Assembly (NCBI GenBank): GCA_003161495.1
Contig: PMOP01000300.1
Span: 2,239 to 13,029 of the forward strand
Length of the DNA: 10,791 nucleotides
Direction of reading: 5' to 3'
DNA from: Acidobacteriota bacterium
GTDB taxonomy: Bacteria; Acidobacteriota; Terriglobia; Acidiferrales; UBA7541
A program made the position numbers and the translations under genes. Below are positions 4,274 to 10,791 of this stretch, piece after piece. Below the pieces are notes generated by a model that searched no databases, was not told where the DNA came from, and saw nothing but the letters and a program-made list of their open reading frames with translations. How positions within the stretch are numbered: the stretch's first letter is position 1; every line of letters starts with the position of its first letter.

Positions 4274-4349
4274 GTAGCGCCGGCGTCTCGCCGGCAGTTT
4301 TTCTAATTATTATGCAGCGCGAAAACCGCCGGCGAGACGCCGGCGCTAC
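4274..4349. repeat. REPIN-like element 1 (inverted pair of GTAG hairpins)
   Basis: Two perfect 22-base inverted arms (4274-4295 and 4328-4349) separated by 32 bases. The outer ends are GTAG and CTAC. Each arm is itself a hairpin with a 7 bp stem, GCCGGCG-TCT-CGCCGGC on the left and its complement on the right. The spacer starts AGTTTTTC and ends CGAAAACC, so the inverted symmetry continues past the arms with one mismatch. It lies between the 3' ends of two convergent genes. The layout fits a REP doublet (REPIN) of the kind mobilised by RAYT transposases; that attribution is inference. Confidence 0.8.
4279..4302 (+). terminator. Possible Rho-independent terminator formed by left arm of element 1
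   Basis: A GC-only 7 bp stem (4279-4285 with 4289-4295, loop TCT) is followed by AG and a run of five T at 4298-4302, 70 bases after the stop of the secreted-protein gene. The mirror-image arm could do the same for the minus-strand receptor gene, although its T-run is only four. A terminator role is inferred from structure and from the position between convergent genes. Confidence 0.4.
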
Positions 4350-4353
4350 GAAC

Positions 4354-5370
4354 CTACGCAAGTTTGCCGACATGAGCTTCAAGCAGGCTCCAAGCGCGCT
4401 CTCCGACCGTTTCTTTCCAGTGGGCATAATAGGATGTCAACCGGGGACGGAAGGAAGACGTGTCCGCTTCGTTAAACGTCATGCCTTGCGTTGCGAGCTT
4501 GGTGCGAAATTCCGTGTTGAGGGCGCTCAGTTCCGCGCGCTGCAGGCGAACGAATTTGACGACGTTGCGGGCGATGATGTCCTGAACATCGGAAGGGAAG
4601 CGCTGCCATAGTTTCCAGTTCGCGAGCAGATTGAAACCCGACCAGCCGTGATTGGTCAGGCTCACATACTTCTGCACTTCGTACAGCTTCAAAAATTCCG
4701 CGACGGCCAGTGGGTTGGTCTGCGCTTCGGCCGCGCCTGTCTTTAACGTTTCATACAGCTTGTTAAAATTGGCGACCACGGGTGATGCGCCCATGGCTTT
4801 CCAAGCTTCGATATAAATCGGTGCGTCCGGAGTGCGGATTTTCAGCCCTTGCAAATCGTCCACCGTGCGGATCGGGCGGGTCGCGCAGGTAATCTGGTGA
4901 AATCCGTTGTCGAAGCATCCTTTCGGAACGGCGTAGATCCCTTTGGCTTTCACTTCCTCGCGCAAATAATCCCCGAGATCGCCGTCCAGCGAATCGAAGA
5001 CTTGGGCTGGAGTGCGAAATGCGAAGAGGAGCCCTTGTACGTTCATCGCCGGAACGAGATTTCCGATGGAGCCGCCGTTCAACGTGAAGAAATCCAGTTC
5101 GCCGCTGGCTACCATATTGAGCGCGGCCGGGTCTCCCCCCGCGATCTTGTTGTTGTCCGAAAAAGTTTGCACCTGCACTCGGCCGTTCGTTTCGGTTTTT
5201 ACGGCGTCCCACATTTGCGTGAGCCATTTATCGAGCGGGCTGTCCGCAGGCTGGTTATGGAATTGTCGCAGCTCAAATTCCGCCGCGCGTGCGCGCCGGC
5301 TCGTGAGCAGCATTCCGCCAGCGGCCATCAGGCCCACTGTGAACTTCCTGCGAGAGATCTCGCGTACCAT
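4354..5370 (-). CDS. TRAP transporter solute-binding receptor, DctP family (Tat-exported, orphan)
   Basis: Periplasmic receptor of the tripartite ATP-independent (TRAP) type, 338 residues, usual for DctP proteins. The start at 5370 is fixed by an AGGAGA ribosome site (5376-5381) five bases upstream; the open frame runs on to 5463 only because it reads through a repeat element. Residues 6-12 (SRRKFTV) followed by a hydrophobic stretch and ARA at 27-29 make a twin-arginine signal, so it is probably exported folded. The family core is visible: GLKIRTPDAPIYIEAWKAMG around residue 175-194, with the conserved carboxylate-binding Arg at 179, then LYETLKTGAAEAQTNP at about 205-220. The ligand is probably an organic acid but cannot be named. 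No DctQ or DctM membrane subunits lie in the window, so its transporter is elsewhere or it acts in sensing. It lies downstream of the LVIVD propeller gene on the same strand with a 135-base gap. Confidence 0.88.
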   Translation of the reverse strand: MVREISRRKFTVGLMAAGGMLLTSRRARAAEFELRQFHNQPADSPLDKWLTQMWDAVKTETNGRVQVQTFSDNNKIAGGDPAALNMVASGELDFFTLNGGSIGNLVPAMNVQGLLFAFRTPAQVFDSLDGDLGDYLREEVKAKGIYAVPKGCFDNGFHQITCATRPIRTVDDLQGLKIRTPDAPIYIEAWKAMGASPVVANFNKLYETLKTGAAEAQTNPLAVAEFLKLYEVQKYVSLTNHGWSGFNLLANWKLWQRFPSDVQDIIARNVVKFVRLQRAELSALNTEFRTKLATQGMTFNEADTSSFRPRLTSYYAHWKETVGERAWSLLEAHVGKLA

Positions 5371-5375
5371 AAATT

Positions 5376-5381
5376 TCTCCT
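5376..5381 (-). promoter_or_regulatory. Shine-Dalgarno site deciding the DctP-like start
   Basis: AGGAGA on the minus strand, five bases before the ATG at 5370. It separates the true start from the upstream in-frame ATG at 5463, whose extra 31 codons are encoded mostly by REPIN-like element 2. Confidence 0.8.
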
Positions 5382-5403
5382 GAAAGCCGCGCGCTGATTT
5401 TTT

Positions 5404-5478
5404 GTAGCACAGCCACTCTTGGCTGTGCGGTGTTTGCTGCGCGTAACAAAGGCGCACAGGCAAGAGTGCCTGTGCTAC
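5404..5478. repeat. REPIN-like element 2 (inverted pair of GTAG hairpins, compensatory change)
   Basis: Two 25-base inverted arms (5404-5428 and 5454-5478) separated by 25 bases, with outer ends GTAG and CTAC. Each arm alone is a perfect 9 bp hairpin: GCACAGCCA / TGGCTGTGC with loop CTCT on the left, GCACAGGCA / TGCCTGTGC with loop AGAG on the right. The arms match each other at 23 of 25 positions, and the two differences fall on bases that pair within the hairpin. It sits between the LVIVD gene's stop and the receptor gene's ribosome site. The core is unrelated to that of element 1. Confidence 0.82.
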
Positions 5479-5505
5479 TTAAACCCCTTGCGCTGCCAGT
5501 CCAGC

Positions 5506-7206
5506 CTACCCCATCTGGCTGAGCGATCGCCCGAAATAAAAGCTGCGCGCCGTCTGATCGTCCCATCCGACATTGCAGTGCGGGATGGACCATTTCTGGA
5601 CTTTGGTAGGTTCAGTCACCGCCTTTCCGAGAGCCGGACAGGACAGGCAATACGTTCCTTCGTGCGTTCCGATCCAGATCAGATTTCGATCGAACTCGAC
5701 GAAAACATTTTCCGTCGTGCCCCGCCACCAGGTTTCATATTTGTTGATGTCGCCGTCGCGCGGAGGCACAAACCATGCAACTTCTTTCGGCGCGGTCGGG
5801 TCGGAAATATCGAAAACGCGGACGCCTGCGTTGAACCAGGTAATCACCATGATGGCGGGATTGGATGTTCCGGGCGCGAGCCAGCATTGCGTGTTGTGCG
5901 AACCGAAGCGTCCGCGCGCAAAGCAGAAATCCGAGTAGGGAGCGCCGGGAGGCGCGGCCGGACGGGGGAAGAAGCCGATGATCTTGGGATTTTTCGGATC
6001 TTTTACATCCAGGACGTATGGCGTGTGGTAATTCTCGCGGCAGTCCGCCTCCAGCGCTTCGTGCACGGCGACGACTTTATTCTGCAGCTTCGGGTGCGCC
6101 GCATCCGCGATGACCGGATAGCAGGTGTGGAATGGAATGGTGCCGAAGGTATCGAATTCATATTGCATGTGGCCGTAGGGTTTGGGATTTTTTATGTCGG
6201 ACAAATCCATAACGTAAAATCCGAATGCGCCGAAGCCGCCGTAGCCGACGGTGCCGCCGTCTTCCACGCGTTTTGGAACGCTGATCGCGCCGTGATTTCC
6301 GGTCCAGGCCGTGTGGTCCCCCGCGAAGCGGTACTTCTTGTACTCCTCTTCTTCGCCAAGCTTCTGGCCGGGGACCCACCAGCGGGAAACTTCCTGCACA
6401 TTCGCCGGATCGGACATGTCCACGATCATGAGAGCGTTGCTGGTGGGGCGCTGGTGATTTTCCAGGCGCAACTGATCATCCCATCCGCAATCGAGATAGG
6501 AGTATTTTCCGCCGTCATAAAAATTGTGGTGAGTGCCGTTTCCTTTTTCTCCCGTGCTGTATTCCTGCAGAAGGTTCGGCTTGGTGGGATCGGTGACATC
6601 GTAATTGCGGATTCCGCGCAGGCCTTTGTAGGCCAGAACTTTGTCGAGCAGTTCCTTGTCGTACTGGCCGTGCGGATATTCGGGCGATGCACCGGTGAGA
6701 GGTTGCGCCGCCGTGCACATCATGATCCATTTTTTGAGCTTCGAGTTGTAGACGACTGGCCCGCCCAGGCCGCCGCTCTGCATAACCCGTTTATTGTTGA
6801 CCAGCCCCGGGTTCTTGGCGTCACTTACATCGACAAAGTCGCCGCGCGATGGCGCAGGCAACAGCCGCTGCTTGCCCTTGGCCCACATGCACATGAGCGG
6901 CTCGCCGCCGTTGATGGTGGCGCCTGGAAGGTGCGAAATAATTTCCATGTTGTGGATATATTGTTTCGTGTCGAGATAGGTCAGCGAACCCAGGGGGAGA
7001 GGAAGTTCCGGGGGCTGGTTGGAAGTATAGAGGCCTTGCACCTGCGCGCGCGCCCCCGTTTTGCCGATAAAACCCGCGGCAGTCGCTCCAACGGCCGCTC
7101 CGATTGCGCTCTTGAGAATCGATCTCCGGCTGAAACTTTTGCCCGTATCTGCGCGTTTTTCAGTATTACATTTGGACGACAGGGAAGGCTTGCGGATTTT
7201 CGACAT
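5506..7206 (-). CDS. Tat-exported LVIVD-repeat beta-propeller protein
   Basis: 566 residues. The start at 7206 is chosen because AAAGGAGA lies four bases upstream; an in-frame ATG at 7245 has no such site. Residues 26-32 (SRRSILK) closely match the twin-arginine consensus, followed by an Ala/Gly-rich core and GARA at 51-54 as cleavage site. At least six repeats with the pattern hydrophobic-x-D-[VIML]-[ST/K]-D-x-x-x-P occur near residues 123-134, 200-213, 259-273, 330-345, 396-411 and 462-479, typical of LVIVD (PF08309-like) propeller blades. Other notable segments are HHNFYDGGKYSYLDCGWDD (226-244), FGSHNTQCW (434-442), a CxxC at 520-523 and HCNVGWDD near the C-terminus. Eleven cysteines is many for a periplasmic protein. 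Tat export suggests folding or cofactor loading in the cytoplasm. The substrate is unknown; no named enzyme activity can be assigned. Probably in one transcript with the downstream TRAP receptor gene. Confidence 0.85.
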   Translation of the reverse strand: MSKIRKPSLSSKCNTEKRADTGKSFSRRSILKSAIGAAVGATAAGFIGKTGARAQVQGLYTSNQPPELPLPLGSLTYLDTKQYIHNMEIISHLPGATINGGEPLMCMWAKGKQRLLPAPSRGDFVDVSDAKNPGLVNNKRVMQSGGLGGPVVYNSKLKKWIMMCTAAQPLTGASPEYPHGQYDKELLDKVLAYKGLRGIRNYDVTDPTKPNLLQEYSTGEKGNGTHHNFYDGGKYSYLDCGWDDQLRLENHQRPTSNALMIVDMSDPANVQEVSRWWVPGQKLGEEEEYKKYRFAGDHTAWTGNHGAISVPKRVEDGGTVGYGGFGAFGFYVMDLSDIKNPKPYGHMQYEFDTFGTIPFHTCYPVIADAAHPKLQNKVVAVHEALEADCRENYHTPYVLDVKDPKNPKIIGFFPRPAAPPGAPYSDFCFARGRFGSHNTQCWLAPGTSNPAIMVITWFNAGVRVFDISDPTAPKEVAWFVPPRDGDINKYETWWRGTTENVFVEFDRNLIWIGTHEGTYCLSCPALGKAVTEPTKVQKWSIPHCNVGWDDQTARSFYFGRSLSQMG

Positions 7207-7229
7207 GACTCTCCTTTGATCAGTTCGGA

Positions 7230-7248
7230 TGGTTGCGACGCGCAACCA
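7230..7248. promoter_or_regulatory. Inverted repeat in the leader of the LVIVD gene
   Basis: TGGTTGCG-ACG-CGCAACCA is an uninterrupted 8 bp stem with a 3-base loop. It lies about 24 bases before the LVIVD start codon and 13 bases before its ribosome site. It could be an operator or an mRNA hairpin; nothing in the sequence decides between them. Confidence 0.4.
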
Positions 7249-7455
7249 AATTGTCTCAAAATATTTGCGGCGAAATCGTCACACCCGGACGCGCTCGCAT
7301 GCCGCGCATCATACTCTAACTGGTTGCCGGCGCAAAGATGGAGCAACGGCCGGCCGTCTAAAATGCGGGCGGTTTCGTAGTGGGCAGGTTCATGGTGAAA
7401 CAGCGTCCCACCGAAAACGCGCTCACTCTGCGGAGTTGCCGCCAAGCGATTCAAC

Positions 7456-7475
7456 CTGTCGTACAATATCGACAG
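7456..7475 (+). promoter_or_regulatory. Candidate tkt -10 region within a 20 bp palindrome
   Basis: TACAAT (7462-7467) is a plausible -10 hexamer about 40 bases before the transketolase start. It is flanked symmetrically by CTGTCG (7456-7461) and CGACAG (7470-7475). The best -35 candidate, TTGCCG at 7436-7441, leaves a 20-base spacer, which is too long for comfort. The promoter call is weak; the palindrome itself is exact. Confidence 0.35.
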
Positions 7476-7506
7476 TGGGCAATAGGGACGAGAGACAGGA
7501 GCCAGC

Positions 7507-9606
7507 ATGAGCGTAACCGACACCAGTGCATCGATTCACAACGCCGCCACGCCAATGGAGATGCTGTGCATCAATACGATCCGCACGCTTTCCATGGACG
7601 CTGTGCAGGCCGCCAATTCCGGACATCCCGGCACGCCCATGGCGATGGCGCCGCTTGCTTACTGTTTGTGGCGGGAATTTCTGCGCTACGATCCGAACGA
7701 TCCGCTGTGGCCCAATCGCGACCGCTTCGTTCTCTCCGCGGGACACGCTTCCATGCTCCTATATTCTGTCCTGCATCTTGCGGCGGTTAAAGAGGCCGGA
7801 AAAAATCTCGAAATTCTCGATGGGCCCGCCGTGCGGCTTGAGGACATCAAGAATTTTCGGCAACTCGGGAGCCGCTGCCCAGGCCATCCGGAATCGCACC
7901 TGACGACGGGCGTCGAGACGACTACCGGCCCGCTGGGCCAGGGTTACGCGAACAGCGTGGGGATGGCGCTTGCCGGAAAATGGCTCGTAACACGATATAA
8001 TCAGCCGGGGTTTGAGGACATTTACAATTTCAACGTGTTCGCGCTAGGCGGCGACGGCTGCATGATGGAGGGCATTTCCAGCGAAGCGGCCTCGCTCGCC
8101 GGGCACCTGAAGCTTTCCAATCTTTGCTGGATCTATGACAGCAACCGCATCACCATCGAAGGCGGCACGCCGCTCGCATTTTCCGAAGACGTAGCCGCGC
8201 GATTCGCCGCTTACGGATGGAATGTCGCGCACGTGACCGATGCGAACGACCTGGACATGATTCGGGCTGGTTTTCGCACGTTCCTCGCGACGGGTGACCG
8301 CCCGACTCTCATTATTGTAAACAGCCACATCGGCTGGGGCTCGCCGCACAAGCAGGACACCAAGGAAGCACACGGTGAAGCGCTCGGTGAAGAGGAAGTT
8401 AAACTGACCAAGCGCTTCTACGGCTGGCCGGAGGACGCGAAATTTCTGATTCCCGACGGCGTGTACGAACAGTTCCGGAAGGGAATCGGAGCGCGTGGGA
8501 AAACGGAGCGCGATCGTTGGACGGCGCGACTCGCCGAATACCGTGCCGCGCATCCCGAGCTGGCCAATGAAATTTCGCTGATGGAACACCGGCAACTTCC
8601 TGCCGGCTGGGATAAGGAATTACCGACGTTTCCCGCCGATGCGAAGGGACTTGCCACGCGCGATTCCTCCGCCAAAGTTGAAAACGCGATTGCAAAAAAT
8701 GTTCCGTGGATGATTGGCGGTTCGGCCGATCTCGCGCCCTCGACTAAAACTTTGCTCACCTTCGAGCCGGCAACCGGATTTCAGCCCGGCAATTATGCGG
8801 GCCGGAATTTGCACTTCGGCATTCGCGAGCACGCCATGGCCGCGGCGATTAACGGCATGAGCCTGACCAAGGTGCGCCCATTCGGCGCCACGTTTTTTGT
8901 TTTTACCGATTACATGCGCGGCGGCTTGCGGCTCAGCGCGATCATGGGAATTCCGGTGATCTATATTCTGACGCACGATTCGATCGGCGTCGGCGAGGAT
9001 GGGCCGACTCATCAGCCGATCGAGCACTTGGCGATCGCGCGCGCCACGCCCGGCCTGCTCACATTGCGGCCTGCGGACGCGAACGAAGTGGTCGAAGCAT
9101 GGAAAGTAGTCATGCAGCTGCAGCACGAGCCGGCGCTGCTCGTTTTGACGCGCCAAGGGGTGCCCACGCTCGATCGCGCGCGATTCGCCCCAGCCGCAGG
9201 ACTCGTGCGCGGAGCGTATGTTCTCGCCGCCGAAAAGGCCGGAACGCGTCCCGATGTGCTGCTGCTGGCCACGGGCAGCGAAGTTTCGCTGTGCGTCGAG
9301 GCGTTCGAGCAGCTGGCGAAAGAGGGAATTCAGGCGCGCGTTATCAGCATGCCGTCGTGGGAGCTGTTCGAGAAACAGGATCAGGCGTACCGCGATTCCG
9401 TTCTGCCGCCTGCCGTGAAGGCGCGCGTTTCCGTGGAAATGGCCACGACCTTCGGCTGGGAGCGCTACGTTGGCATGTCGGGCCGCAGCATCGGAATGCA
9501 CAGCTTCGGCGCTTCGGCGCCCATCAAGGCGCTGCAGAAACATTTCGGCTTCACTGTCGAAAATGTAGTGGCCGCCGCGAAGGAACAGATTCAGTCCGTC
9601 AAGTAG
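7507..9606 (+). CDS. tkt: Transketolase
   Basis: Thiamine-diphosphate enzyme moving two-carbon ketol units between sugar phosphates in the non-oxidative pentose phosphate pathway; cytoplasmic. 699 residues, somewhat longer than the usual ~660. AGGAG at 7497-7501 sits five bases before the ATG. The pyrophosphate domain shows [13 protein letters not shown] (His40), LSAGHASML (His80), [22 protein letters not shown] (125-146) and the ThDP/Mg motif GDG (182-184) to N213 in [11 protein letters not shown]. Next come [13 protein letters not shown] (substrate-binding His289), the pyrimidine domain with catalytic Glu441 in [17 protein letters not shown], and [18 protein letters not shown] (His502). LTRQGVP and a C-terminal domain ending AKEQIQSVK follow. 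All key residues I can place are present, so it should be active. The glycine of the usual GHGSML is alanine here. The stop codon (TAG, 9604-9606) lies inside the first bases of REPIN-like element 3. The pgi gene follows after 88 bases. Confidence 0.97.
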
Positions 9607-9678
9607 GACGGGCTTCAGCCTGTCCGGTTTTGATTTTCTTCGCCGAACCGAAAACCGACAGGCTGAAGCCCGTCCTAC
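9603..9678. repeat. REPIN-like element 3 (inverted pair of GTAG hairpins) overlapping the tkt stop
   Basis: Two perfect 22-base inverted arms (9603-9624 and 9657-9678) separated by 32 bases, with outer ends GTAG and CTAC. The left arm folds as GGACGGGCT-TC-AGCCTGTCC with one G-T wobble. The right arm, read on the minus strand, has the same fold. The spacer begins CGGTTTT and ends CGAAAACC, the same eight bases that end the element 1 spacer. The TAG inside the opening GTAG serves as the transketolase stop codon. The element fills nearly the whole tkt-pgi gap, ending seven bases before the pgi ribosome site. Confidence 0.82.
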
Positions 9679-9694: not shown

Positions 9695-10791
9695 ATGGAC
9701 GAATTCGAGCTTTGGAAACGTTACCGCAAGTATTTTTGCCGCGTCGATTCGCTCGACCTCTCGCTGGATATCAGCCGCATGCATTTCGACGAGGCGTTTC
9801 TCGCCTCGATGGAACCCGCCATGCAAAAAGCGTTCAAGGACATGGACGCTTTGGAAAGCGGCGCGATCGCCAATCCTGACGAAAAGCGAATGGTGGGCCA
9901 TTACTGGCTGCGCTCGCCGCAGCTCGCGCCCACGAAAGATATCGCCCTGGAAATCACCGGCACTGTCGAATCCATTCAAAAATTTGCCGCCGGCGTGCAC
10001 TCGGGAAAAATCAAGCCGCCCAAGGCGGAACGATTCACGCAGGTGCTGGCAATCGGCATCGGCGGCTCGGCGCTCGGCCCCATGTTTGTCGGCGATGCGC
10101 TCGGTGAACCTTCTTCCGACCGCATGAAAATGCATTTCATCGACAACACCGATCCGGACGGCATCGCGCGCATGATGGAAACGCTGAAGGGTCTTCTTCC
10201 CGAAACGCTCGTCATCGTGACCAGCAAAAGCGGCGGGACTCCGGACACGCGCAACGGTATGGTGGTTGTTGCCGAGGCCTATCGCGAAGTGCATTTGAAT
10301 TTCGCGCCTCATGCTGTCGCGGTCACCATGGCCGGATCGCATTTGGACAAACTCGCGGCATCGGAATCGTGGCTTGCGCGCATTCCCATGTTCGATTGGG
10401 TTGGCGGCCGCACGAGCGAGCTTTCGGCCGTGGGCTTGCTTCCCGCGGCATTGCAGGGAATCGATATCGTCCGCATGCTCGCCGGTGCCGCGGCCTGCGA
10501 CGCCGCCACGCGCGTTCATGAAACGCGGCGCAATCCCGCTGCGCTGATGGCTTTGATGTGGTATGTCGCAACGGACGGAAAAGGAAAGAAAGACCTGGTC
10601 GTTCTGCCGTACAAGGATCGCTTGCTTTTATTCAGCCGCTATTTGCAGCAGCTGGTAATGGAATCGCTCGGTAAATCGCTCGATCTCGATGGCCGCCGCG
10701 TCGAGCAGGGAATAGCTGTGTACGGAAATAAAGGATCCACCGACCAGCACGCTTTCGTGCAGCAATTGCGCGACGGCGTGAATAATTTCTT
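9695..10791 (+). CDS. pgi: Glucose-6-phosphate isomerase (3' partial)
   Basis: Interconverts glucose 6-phosphate and fructose 6-phosphate; cytoplasmic. The frame is open from the ATG at 9695 to the window edge, giving 365 codons, so perhaps the last third is missing (family ~450-550 residues). AGGAG at 9686-9690 lies four bases upstream of the start. Paired SIS-type sugar-isomerase features are visible: [11 protein letters not shown] (119-129), [11 protein letters not shown] (175-185, phosphate-binding loop), [16 protein letters not shown] (235-250), [18 protein letters not shown] (316-333, whose Glu323 corresponds to the catalytic Glu of the rabbit enzyme's MESNGK motif) and [18 protein letters not shown] (344-361, with the ring-opening His352). 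The GSTDQH form is, from memory, typical of the cyanobacterial-like PGI subgroup, not the E. coli type. It follows tkt in the same direction, linking pentose phosphate and glycolytic intermediates. The 88-base gap is almost all REPIN-like element 3. Confidence 0.95.

Follow-up and report, generated by a model that had tools for sequence, protein, structure and literature searches.

In Pseudomonas fluorescens, the repeated unit called the REPIN (REP doublet forming hairpins) reportedly consists of two inverted repetitive extragenic palindromes (REPs) with a short spacer between them, and several REPIN families are said to occur per genome. Here we describe three elements of this layout in a 10,791-bp stretch of DNA from an Acidobacteriota bacterium (hereafter the window; positions 2239-13029 of a 13,029-bp contig, from a 3.93-Mb assembly of 544 contigs that is 72.6% complete), together with the REP-associated tyrosine transposases (RAYTs) that probably spread them. 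The closest described systems are the REPINs of P. fluorescens (Bertels and Rainey 2011, PMC3116915); the REP classes, RAYT orthogroups and "orthoswitch" of pseudomonads and stenotrophomonads (Nunvar 2013, PMC3686654); GTAG-tagged palindromes, which form dimers with outward feet, whose foot is often a TAG stop codon and whose stems undergo complementary changes (Di Nocera 2013, PMC3733652); and the class 3 TnpA-Y1 proteins of Planctomycetes, Acidobacteria and Proteobacteria, with about 600 linked hairpins in Solibacter usitatus (PMC6006769). For the transposase we draw on the TnpA-REP structure PDB 4ER8 (from E. coli, according to PMC6006769) and, as the basis of an analogy for binding and cleavage, on the TnpA-REP work in PMC8266576. 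Palindrome counts for three Acidobacteriota are given in PMC12306157, where the available text does not name RAYTs. In the available text of the literature on RAYT/REP systems and Acidobacteria we found no description of the three families reported below, which is not proof that none exists.

We propose that the three elements are REPINs, that is, inverted REP hairpins with a GTAG foot and a spacer between them, spread by RAYTs, and that their families (F1, F2 and F3) are diverged specificities of a single RAYT clade. We put the probability of this reading at about 0.93. It is directly supported by the repeat number, the inverted pairing, the association with RAYT genes, the covariation of the stems and the presence of matched, element-free sites in a sister species.

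4274..4349, 76 bp: element 1, assigned to REPIN family F1; 22-nt arms at 4274-4295 (+) and 4328-4349 (-), spacer of 32 nt
5404..5478, 75 bp: element 2, assigned to REPIN family F2; 25-nt arms at 5404-5428 (+) and 5454-5478 (-), spacer of 25 nt
9603..9678, 76 bp: element 3, assigned to REPIN family F3; 22-nt arms at 9603-9624 (+) and 9657-9678 (-), spacer of 32 nt

All three elements start with GTAG and end with CTAC, and a separate search for inverted pairs recovered them as well; the coordinates, lengths (76, 75 and 76 bp), feet and spacers (32, 25 and 32 nt) of the original prediction were all borne out. Its further remark that the inner flanks of elements 1 and 3 are alike was right in kind and too narrow, as at consensus level this flank is common to all three families. 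In each element the GTAG tetranucleotide lies directly 5' of a short hairpin, the arrangement that defines a REP with a GTAG or GTGG foot. A single arm forms 7 pairs with a 3-nt loop in element 1, 9 pairs with a 4-nt loop in element 2, and 7 pairs with a 4-nt loop in element 3, where each stem includes one G.T pair. The arms of element 2 are two different stem variants, AGCC..GGCT on the left and AGGC..GCCT on the right. Folded as single-stranded DNA, elements 1, 2 and 3 have z-scores of -8.7, -6.4 and -11.9, and 0 of 200 dinucleotide shuffles fold equally well. The window has no match in Rfam at gathering scores, and an Rfam RNA was rejected on that ground.

Each arm is abundant in the genome. 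Allowing at most three mismatches, we found 185 matches to the F1 arm (93 + 92), 190 to the F2 arm (99 + 91) and 212 to the F3 arm (109 + 103) in the assembly; the reversed patterns gave 0, 0 and 1. Chance hairpins are rejected by these copy numbers against the reversed controls and by the folding against shuffles. Because all of the F3 matches listed (about 100 of the 212) are exact, the sequences suggest that F3 has spread recently. Pairs and flanks were counted at the 30 best matches per arm and on 20 contigs, and the resulting figures describe mostly best-match loci and not genome-wide shares. Among these sampled loci, two inverted REPs with feet outward and a short spacer are the usual unit: we count 78 distinct inverted pairs, 26 of F1, 22 of F2 and 30 of F3, with 4 of the 30 resembling F4, our name for the GCACAGGCTTCAGCCTGTGC arm that adjoins a RAYT in the congener G002. 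Pair lengths are 72-76 bp for 22 of the 26 F1 pairs, 75-108 bp for 19 of the 22 F2 pairs and 66-84 bp for 28 of the 30 F3 pairs. On the inner side of the arm, a TTT occurs no more than 8 nt away in 38/52 distinct F1 arms, 49/54 F2 arms and 58/65 F3 arms; on the outer side of the foot, the same distance gives 30, 21 and 21 of these arms, against a frequency of 2% at any single position of the sampled loci. Copies within five mismatches of the GTAG arm have the foot GTAG in 39 and GTGG in 15 of 56 cases for F1, GTAG in 53 of 58 for F2, and GTAG in 71 and GTGG in 9 of 85 for F3, counts that are biased toward GTAG since the query itself started with it. Among the matches listed, F1 includes a GTGG-footed subfamily with GTGG on both arms.

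The stems covary, and the hairpins are under structural constraint. In copies from this genome, the F2 stem pair 10/19 is C-G in 34, G-C in 22 and broken in 2 of 58; the F3 pair 5/22 is G-C in 57, C-G in 26, A-T in 1 and broken in 1 of 85; and the F1 pair 12/16 is G-C in 50, A-T in 4 and broken in 2 of 56. These are numbers of copies and not of independent events, and the F3 set, taken at up to five mismatches, includes F4-like arms. Paired changes also occur in F1 of relatives (for example, loop-closing G..C, A..T, C..G and T..A). At the pair that involves position 8 of the F3 arm, 68 of the 85 arms have G.T and 14 have A-T. Position 8 itself is mostly G in this genome and mostly A in the copies listed from the congener G004, an A-T pair thereby becoming G.T.

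We next turn to the transposases. Six proteins of this genome match PF01797 (Y1_Tnp), one of IS200 type (C361) and five of RAYT type. The RAYT on C474 has the right-hand variant of element 2, an F2 arm, on both sides, and its own TAG stop codon lies inside the REP foot. The C16 RAYT has GTGGGTCGCGGCTTCAGCCGCGAC on both sides, the C28 RAYT has GTGGCGCATGCTTCAGCTTGCGG pairs nearby (read by eye), and those on C422 and C20 are contig-end genes that lack one flank and have other hairpins on the available side. These last four genes (L033, L034, L035 and L032) adjoin four other GTGG/GTAG hairpin families. Because the five RAYTs adjoin five different hairpins, at least five REP specificities probably coexist in this genome. 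At the protein level, the genes have the hallmarks of RAYTs, namely membership of the Y1_Tnp family, a HuH motif (two histidines around a hydrophobic residue) and a single catalytic tyrosine: H99-V100-H101, W137-Q138 and Y158 are invariant in all 18 rows of a RAYT profile. The NCBIfam model REP_Tyr_transpos (NF047646) is the best family for 7/7 proteins tested, five of them from this genome, and scores above its cut-off in 4/7. Compared with solved structures, the RAYT profile matched 7 sequences, the best of which is TnpA-REP (4ER8; E 7.7e-8).

The same association is seen in relatives, for which the flanks of 60 PF01797 loci among the matches listed were scanned. Of 87 RAYT-candidate rows, 7 were put aside as IS200-type before the flank test, which left 80 RAYT-type open reading frames (ORFs). 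Matched GTRG hairpins stand on both sides of 28 of these 80, against 6 of 2000 random pseudo-ORFs drawn from the sequence of this genome and of the sister genome G001; any hairpin on either side is found for 55/80 and 727/2000, respectively. The RAYT L198 of the relative G112, for instance, has an exact F1 arm 5' and an inverted variant differing by one pair 3'. F1 arms or variants occur on both sides of L198, L197 and L289 and on one side of L196, L219 (these cut by contig ends) and L295, and besides G112 the genomes with such RAYTs are G095, G017 and, with two, the more distant G051; in some cases the arms stand on one side only or a contig end intervenes. RAYTs with neighbouring F2 arms or close variants occur in G004, G006, G017, G021, G026, G028, G033, G036, G065 and G070, among others. 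RAYT genes flanked by the REP family that they would serve thus exist for F2 in this genome and in relatives, and for F1 and its variants in relatives. For F3 there are near-versions: RAYTs in G018 and G079 and a fragment in G006 carry GGACAGGC..GCCTGTCC or GGACAGAC..GTCTGTCC arms, which are near F3 and have longer loops. Separately, L136 (G001:C98), one of the seven IS200-type rows set aside, groups with the IS200-type branch, yet is flanked by matched GTAGCCCACCGCTTCAGCGGTGGG hairpins.

To relate the families to each other, we built a quick tree of 83 proteins (4 of the 87 rows, L156, L157, L158 and L195, were dropped first), with REP-core labels assigned by hand and with the label "F2-type" covering variants such as GCGCAGCC and GCACAGAC cores. 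The three F1-flanked RAYTs form one clade (SH-aLRT, a Shimodaira-Hasegawa-like approximate likelihood-ratio test, 97). Seventeen F2-type rows fall inside one clade of 18 (SH-aLRT 91), whose remaining row is F4-like, and two F3-like rows branch just outside it. All of these rows lie inside a clade of 30 (SH-aLRT 95), in which 5 rows have no recognised hairpin. Intermediate cores between the families exist, and the cores are less unrelated than they appear. The original prediction had called the three families unrelated; we do not, because the RAYTs beside the three core kinds share one clade, and F1, F2 and F3 look like diverged specificities of that clade. Its attribution of the elements to REPINs and RAYTs, by contrast, stood up to the follow-up it had proposed: the genome search gave the arm counts of 185, 190 and 212 and the 78 inverted pairs, and the search for RAYTs beside a matching GTAG hairpin gave five RAYT-type genes, that on C474 with F2, and F1-flanked genes in relatives.

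For F2, arm number goes up where an F2-type RAYT is present, as expected. With RAYT presence assigned by hand, the median is 17 arms per genome in 9 genomes of the family with such a gene and 2 (top value 49) in 28 without it (one-sided P 0.0014; 0.0037 without the genome studied here). In the sister genome G001 (89% complete), which has 9 F2 arms, a search with the F2-clade profile found only a relative of the C16 RAYT.

Several results weigh against our proposal. The 72.6%-complete assembly yielded no RAYT flanked by F1 or F3 arms, though two of its five RAYTs (C422 and C20) each lack one flank, and beside the RAYTs scanned no exact F3 arm was seen. More than half of the RAYT-type ORFs (52/80) are without matched REPs on both sides, and three of the proteins fall below the NF047646 cut-off of 80 bits: the F2-cognate C474 RAYT at 65.2, the F1-flanked L198 at 75.2 and L034 at 70.5. 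Three of the 28 genomes without a recognised F2-type RAYT still hold 28-49 F2 arms. For F1, a link between arm number and RAYT presence was looked for with a negative result: among 61 genomes searched, an F1-flanked RAYT is present in only 2 of the 10 that have at least 20 F1 arms (G017 and G051), and therefore F1 abundance does not track the F1 RAYT. Lastly, 135 kb of unselected sequence from this genome contains 19 GTRG hairpins, against 6-15 in shuffles and 15 hairpins with the foot CGTG; because it separates so poorly from shuffles and other feet, this bare count is not used as evidence. As to the suggestion of several RAYT specificities active in one genome, five RAYTs with different neighbouring hairpins are present and may be active, and for two of the window's three families this assembly shows no cognate RAYT.

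A variant of our proposal, and not an alternative to it, is that F1 and F3 are relics in this genome, their RAYTs gone and their copies only decaying. The missing F1 and F3 RAYTs favour it, since none was found in the congeners either, including G004 (94% complete) and G005 (97% complete), where F3 arms at up to two mismatches number 321 and 90; orphan REP classes have also been described (Nunvar 2013, PMC3686654). However, the listed F3 matches are exact, as recent spread would leave them, and with an incomplete assembly and the chance that a related RAYT acts in trans we hold the relic version to be somewhat less likely than not.

By analogy with TnpA-REP, the REPIN would be a non-autonomous unit spread by the RAYT (TnpA-REP, HuH/Y1), a single-strand transposase. 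The RAYT would recognise the hairpin of the GTAG strand in single-stranded DNA, cut near it and catalyse copying, and two inverted REPs would make the REPIN the spreading unit. The predicted substrate of the C474 RAYT is single-stranded GTAGCACAGGCACTCTTGCCTGTGC. The F1 and F3 RAYTs may have been lost here or be encoded in sequence that the assembly lacks; alternatively, these arms may be moved by a related RAYT.

The genes around the three elements are as follows.

4354..5370, - strand: DctP-type solute-binding protein (dctP; Pfam DctP), between elements 1 and 2
5506..7206, - strand: LVIVD-repeat protein (Pfam LVIVD; start codon taken from sequence), adjoins element 2
7507..9606, + strand: transketolase (tkt; Pfam Transketolase_N, 413 bits), adjoins element 3
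9604..9606, + strand: stop codon of tkt (TAG), which falls within the GTAG foot of element 3
9695..10789, + strand: phosphoglucose isomerase (pgi; Pfam PGI), leaves the window edge, adjoins element 3

Element 1 thus lies between dctP and a gene without a Pfam match, element 2 between dctP and the LVIVD-repeat gene, and element 3 between tkt and pgi. The use of a REP foot as a stop codon at tkt is also seen in the orthologues of G004 and G005. More generally, of 140 distinct GTAG arms, 28 have a foot whose TAG terminates an open frame at least 140 codons long; the corresponding numbers for the other two frames are 6 and 10. RAYT genes themselves do so too: a stop is visible in 75 RAYT-type genes (11 ids and ORFs without one were left out of the stop-codon count), TAG being the stop in 25 of them and the stop reading GTAG in 20 of the 25. 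For at least 10 of these 20, that GTAG coincides with the foot of a scanned hairpin; in others it does not. At L095 and L071 (and at L065, with a frame of 100 codons), the two GTAG feet of one REPIN are the TAG stops of two converging frames, and a REPIN at such converging gene ends could end both transcripts. We also note a second, truncated transketolase, 87% identical to that of the window, in the same assembly (L241; G000:C419:1148-3037); because of it, some contigs of the assembly may come from a related species.

Comparison with the sister species G001 shows sites both with and without the elements. Ten of 80 REPIN-like pairs could be matched to 1.06 Mb of G001 sequence, with flanks too diverged for base-level junctions. 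Five of the ten matched sites have no GTRG hairpin, one has another family only, and the remaining four contain REPINs of F3/F4 type, nested or broken in two cases. In G001, the site that matches element 2 has no such hairpin. At the tkt-pgi junction, the F3 REPIN of the window corresponds to an F4 REPIN with GTGG feet in G001, to a single F3-type REP in G004 and in G005, to a single F4-type REP in G002 and to none of these REPs in G003. A second site, L044, likewise has F3 in this genome and F4 in G001, and at both sites both arms of the REPIN belong to whichever of these two classes prevails in that species, mainly GGACGGGCTTCAGCCTGTC (F3) here and mainly GCACAGGCTTCAGCCTGTG (F4) in G001. 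Between the two species, the spacers at tkt-pgi rank 4/70 and 2/30 in likeness (13% of all 2100 pairs score as high) and those at L044 rank 10/70 and 3/30 (3% score as high). They are more alike than most pairs and not exceptional, and the likeness is only suggestive. If both sites hold the same ancestral insertions, then both arms were converted together. We consider it unlikely that REPIN classes are overwritten in place, both arms at once, by gene conversion or RAYT-driven replacement; the two sites may instead reflect new insertions at tolerated positions. If overwriting did occur, a REPIN population could change class without new insertions, and class change at shared sites is a small lead on the turnover of such populations. 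At two G001 loci (L259, 11403-11554, and L269, 12737-12949), REPs of another family are nested in broken F3/F4-type REPINs.

Two further explanations were considered. The first, which we regard as very improbable, is that the elements are ordinary bidirectional intrinsic terminators that are alike through function and are not mobile repeats. A GGTTTT-like sequence comes after the hairpin of each arm, many copies are located at gene ends, and 6 of the 11 terminator-like sites between 4150 and 9750 fall in the three elements (shuffles of the region give a mean of 7.4 in all). However, terminators are not expected to have 22-25-nt arms repeated some 200 times per family with a fixed foot, to have identical arms beside RAYT genes, or to be absent at half of the matched sister-species sites, and on repeat number, RAYT-adjacent arms and element-free sites they are rejected as the sole explanation. 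The arms do give terminator-like matches, but with short T tails (GGTTTT), and the elements may end transcription as a side effect. In the window, the arms followed by GGTTTT resemble weak terminators reading inward from both sides. The second sees the families as miniature forms derived from an insertion sequence, IS200/IS605 or another, and mobilised by the transposase of that element and not by RAYTs. It can point to the IS200-type gene on C361, but we give it next to no credence, the IS200 locus L031 having no GTAG or GTGG hairpin at the threshold of the flank scan whereas the RAYTs carry matching arms.

Taken as REPINs spread by RAYTs, the three elements carry the known range of REPIN/RAYT systems into a family that is probably acidobacterial: by record title, acidobacterial names account for 35 of the 80 named loci with the best matches to the F2-clade profile and for 14 of the top 15. 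They also illustrate how REP families that look unrelated within a genome can represent different specificities of a single RAYT clade, and the list of REP cores with adjoining RAYTs is a useful resource on the joint change of a single-strand transposase and its hairpin. Compared with the REPINs of P. fluorescens, the layout of the unit is the same and there are again several families per genome; here the cores are different and the phylum is another. Like the systems of PMC3686654, as far as the available text describes them, those studied here have several REP classes per genome, cognate RAYTs from one clade, orphan classes, there following a presumed loss of the RAYT, and a change of class between related strains; unlike there, two shared sites here also display the F3/F4 change from one species to the other. 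The window families resemble the palindromes of PMC3733652 in the GTAG foot, the dimers with outward feet, the TAG stops and the paired stem changes; in the portion of that paper at hand, Acidobacteria are represented through tyrosine transposase genes of Koribacter, with other terminal repeats. The class 3 TnpA-Y1 system (PMC6006769) is alike in its many transposase-linked hairpins and differs in its foot, CnGA and not GTAG/GTGG, and in its protein class. TnpA-REP of 4ER8 is the best solved match of the RAYT profile, yet a distant one, and the REPs found here are uninterrupted hairpins, like the second REP group in the available text of Corneloup 2021 (PMC8266576). Nearly all properties reported here therefore have published precedents, and what is new is further families of the REPIN/RAYT kind.

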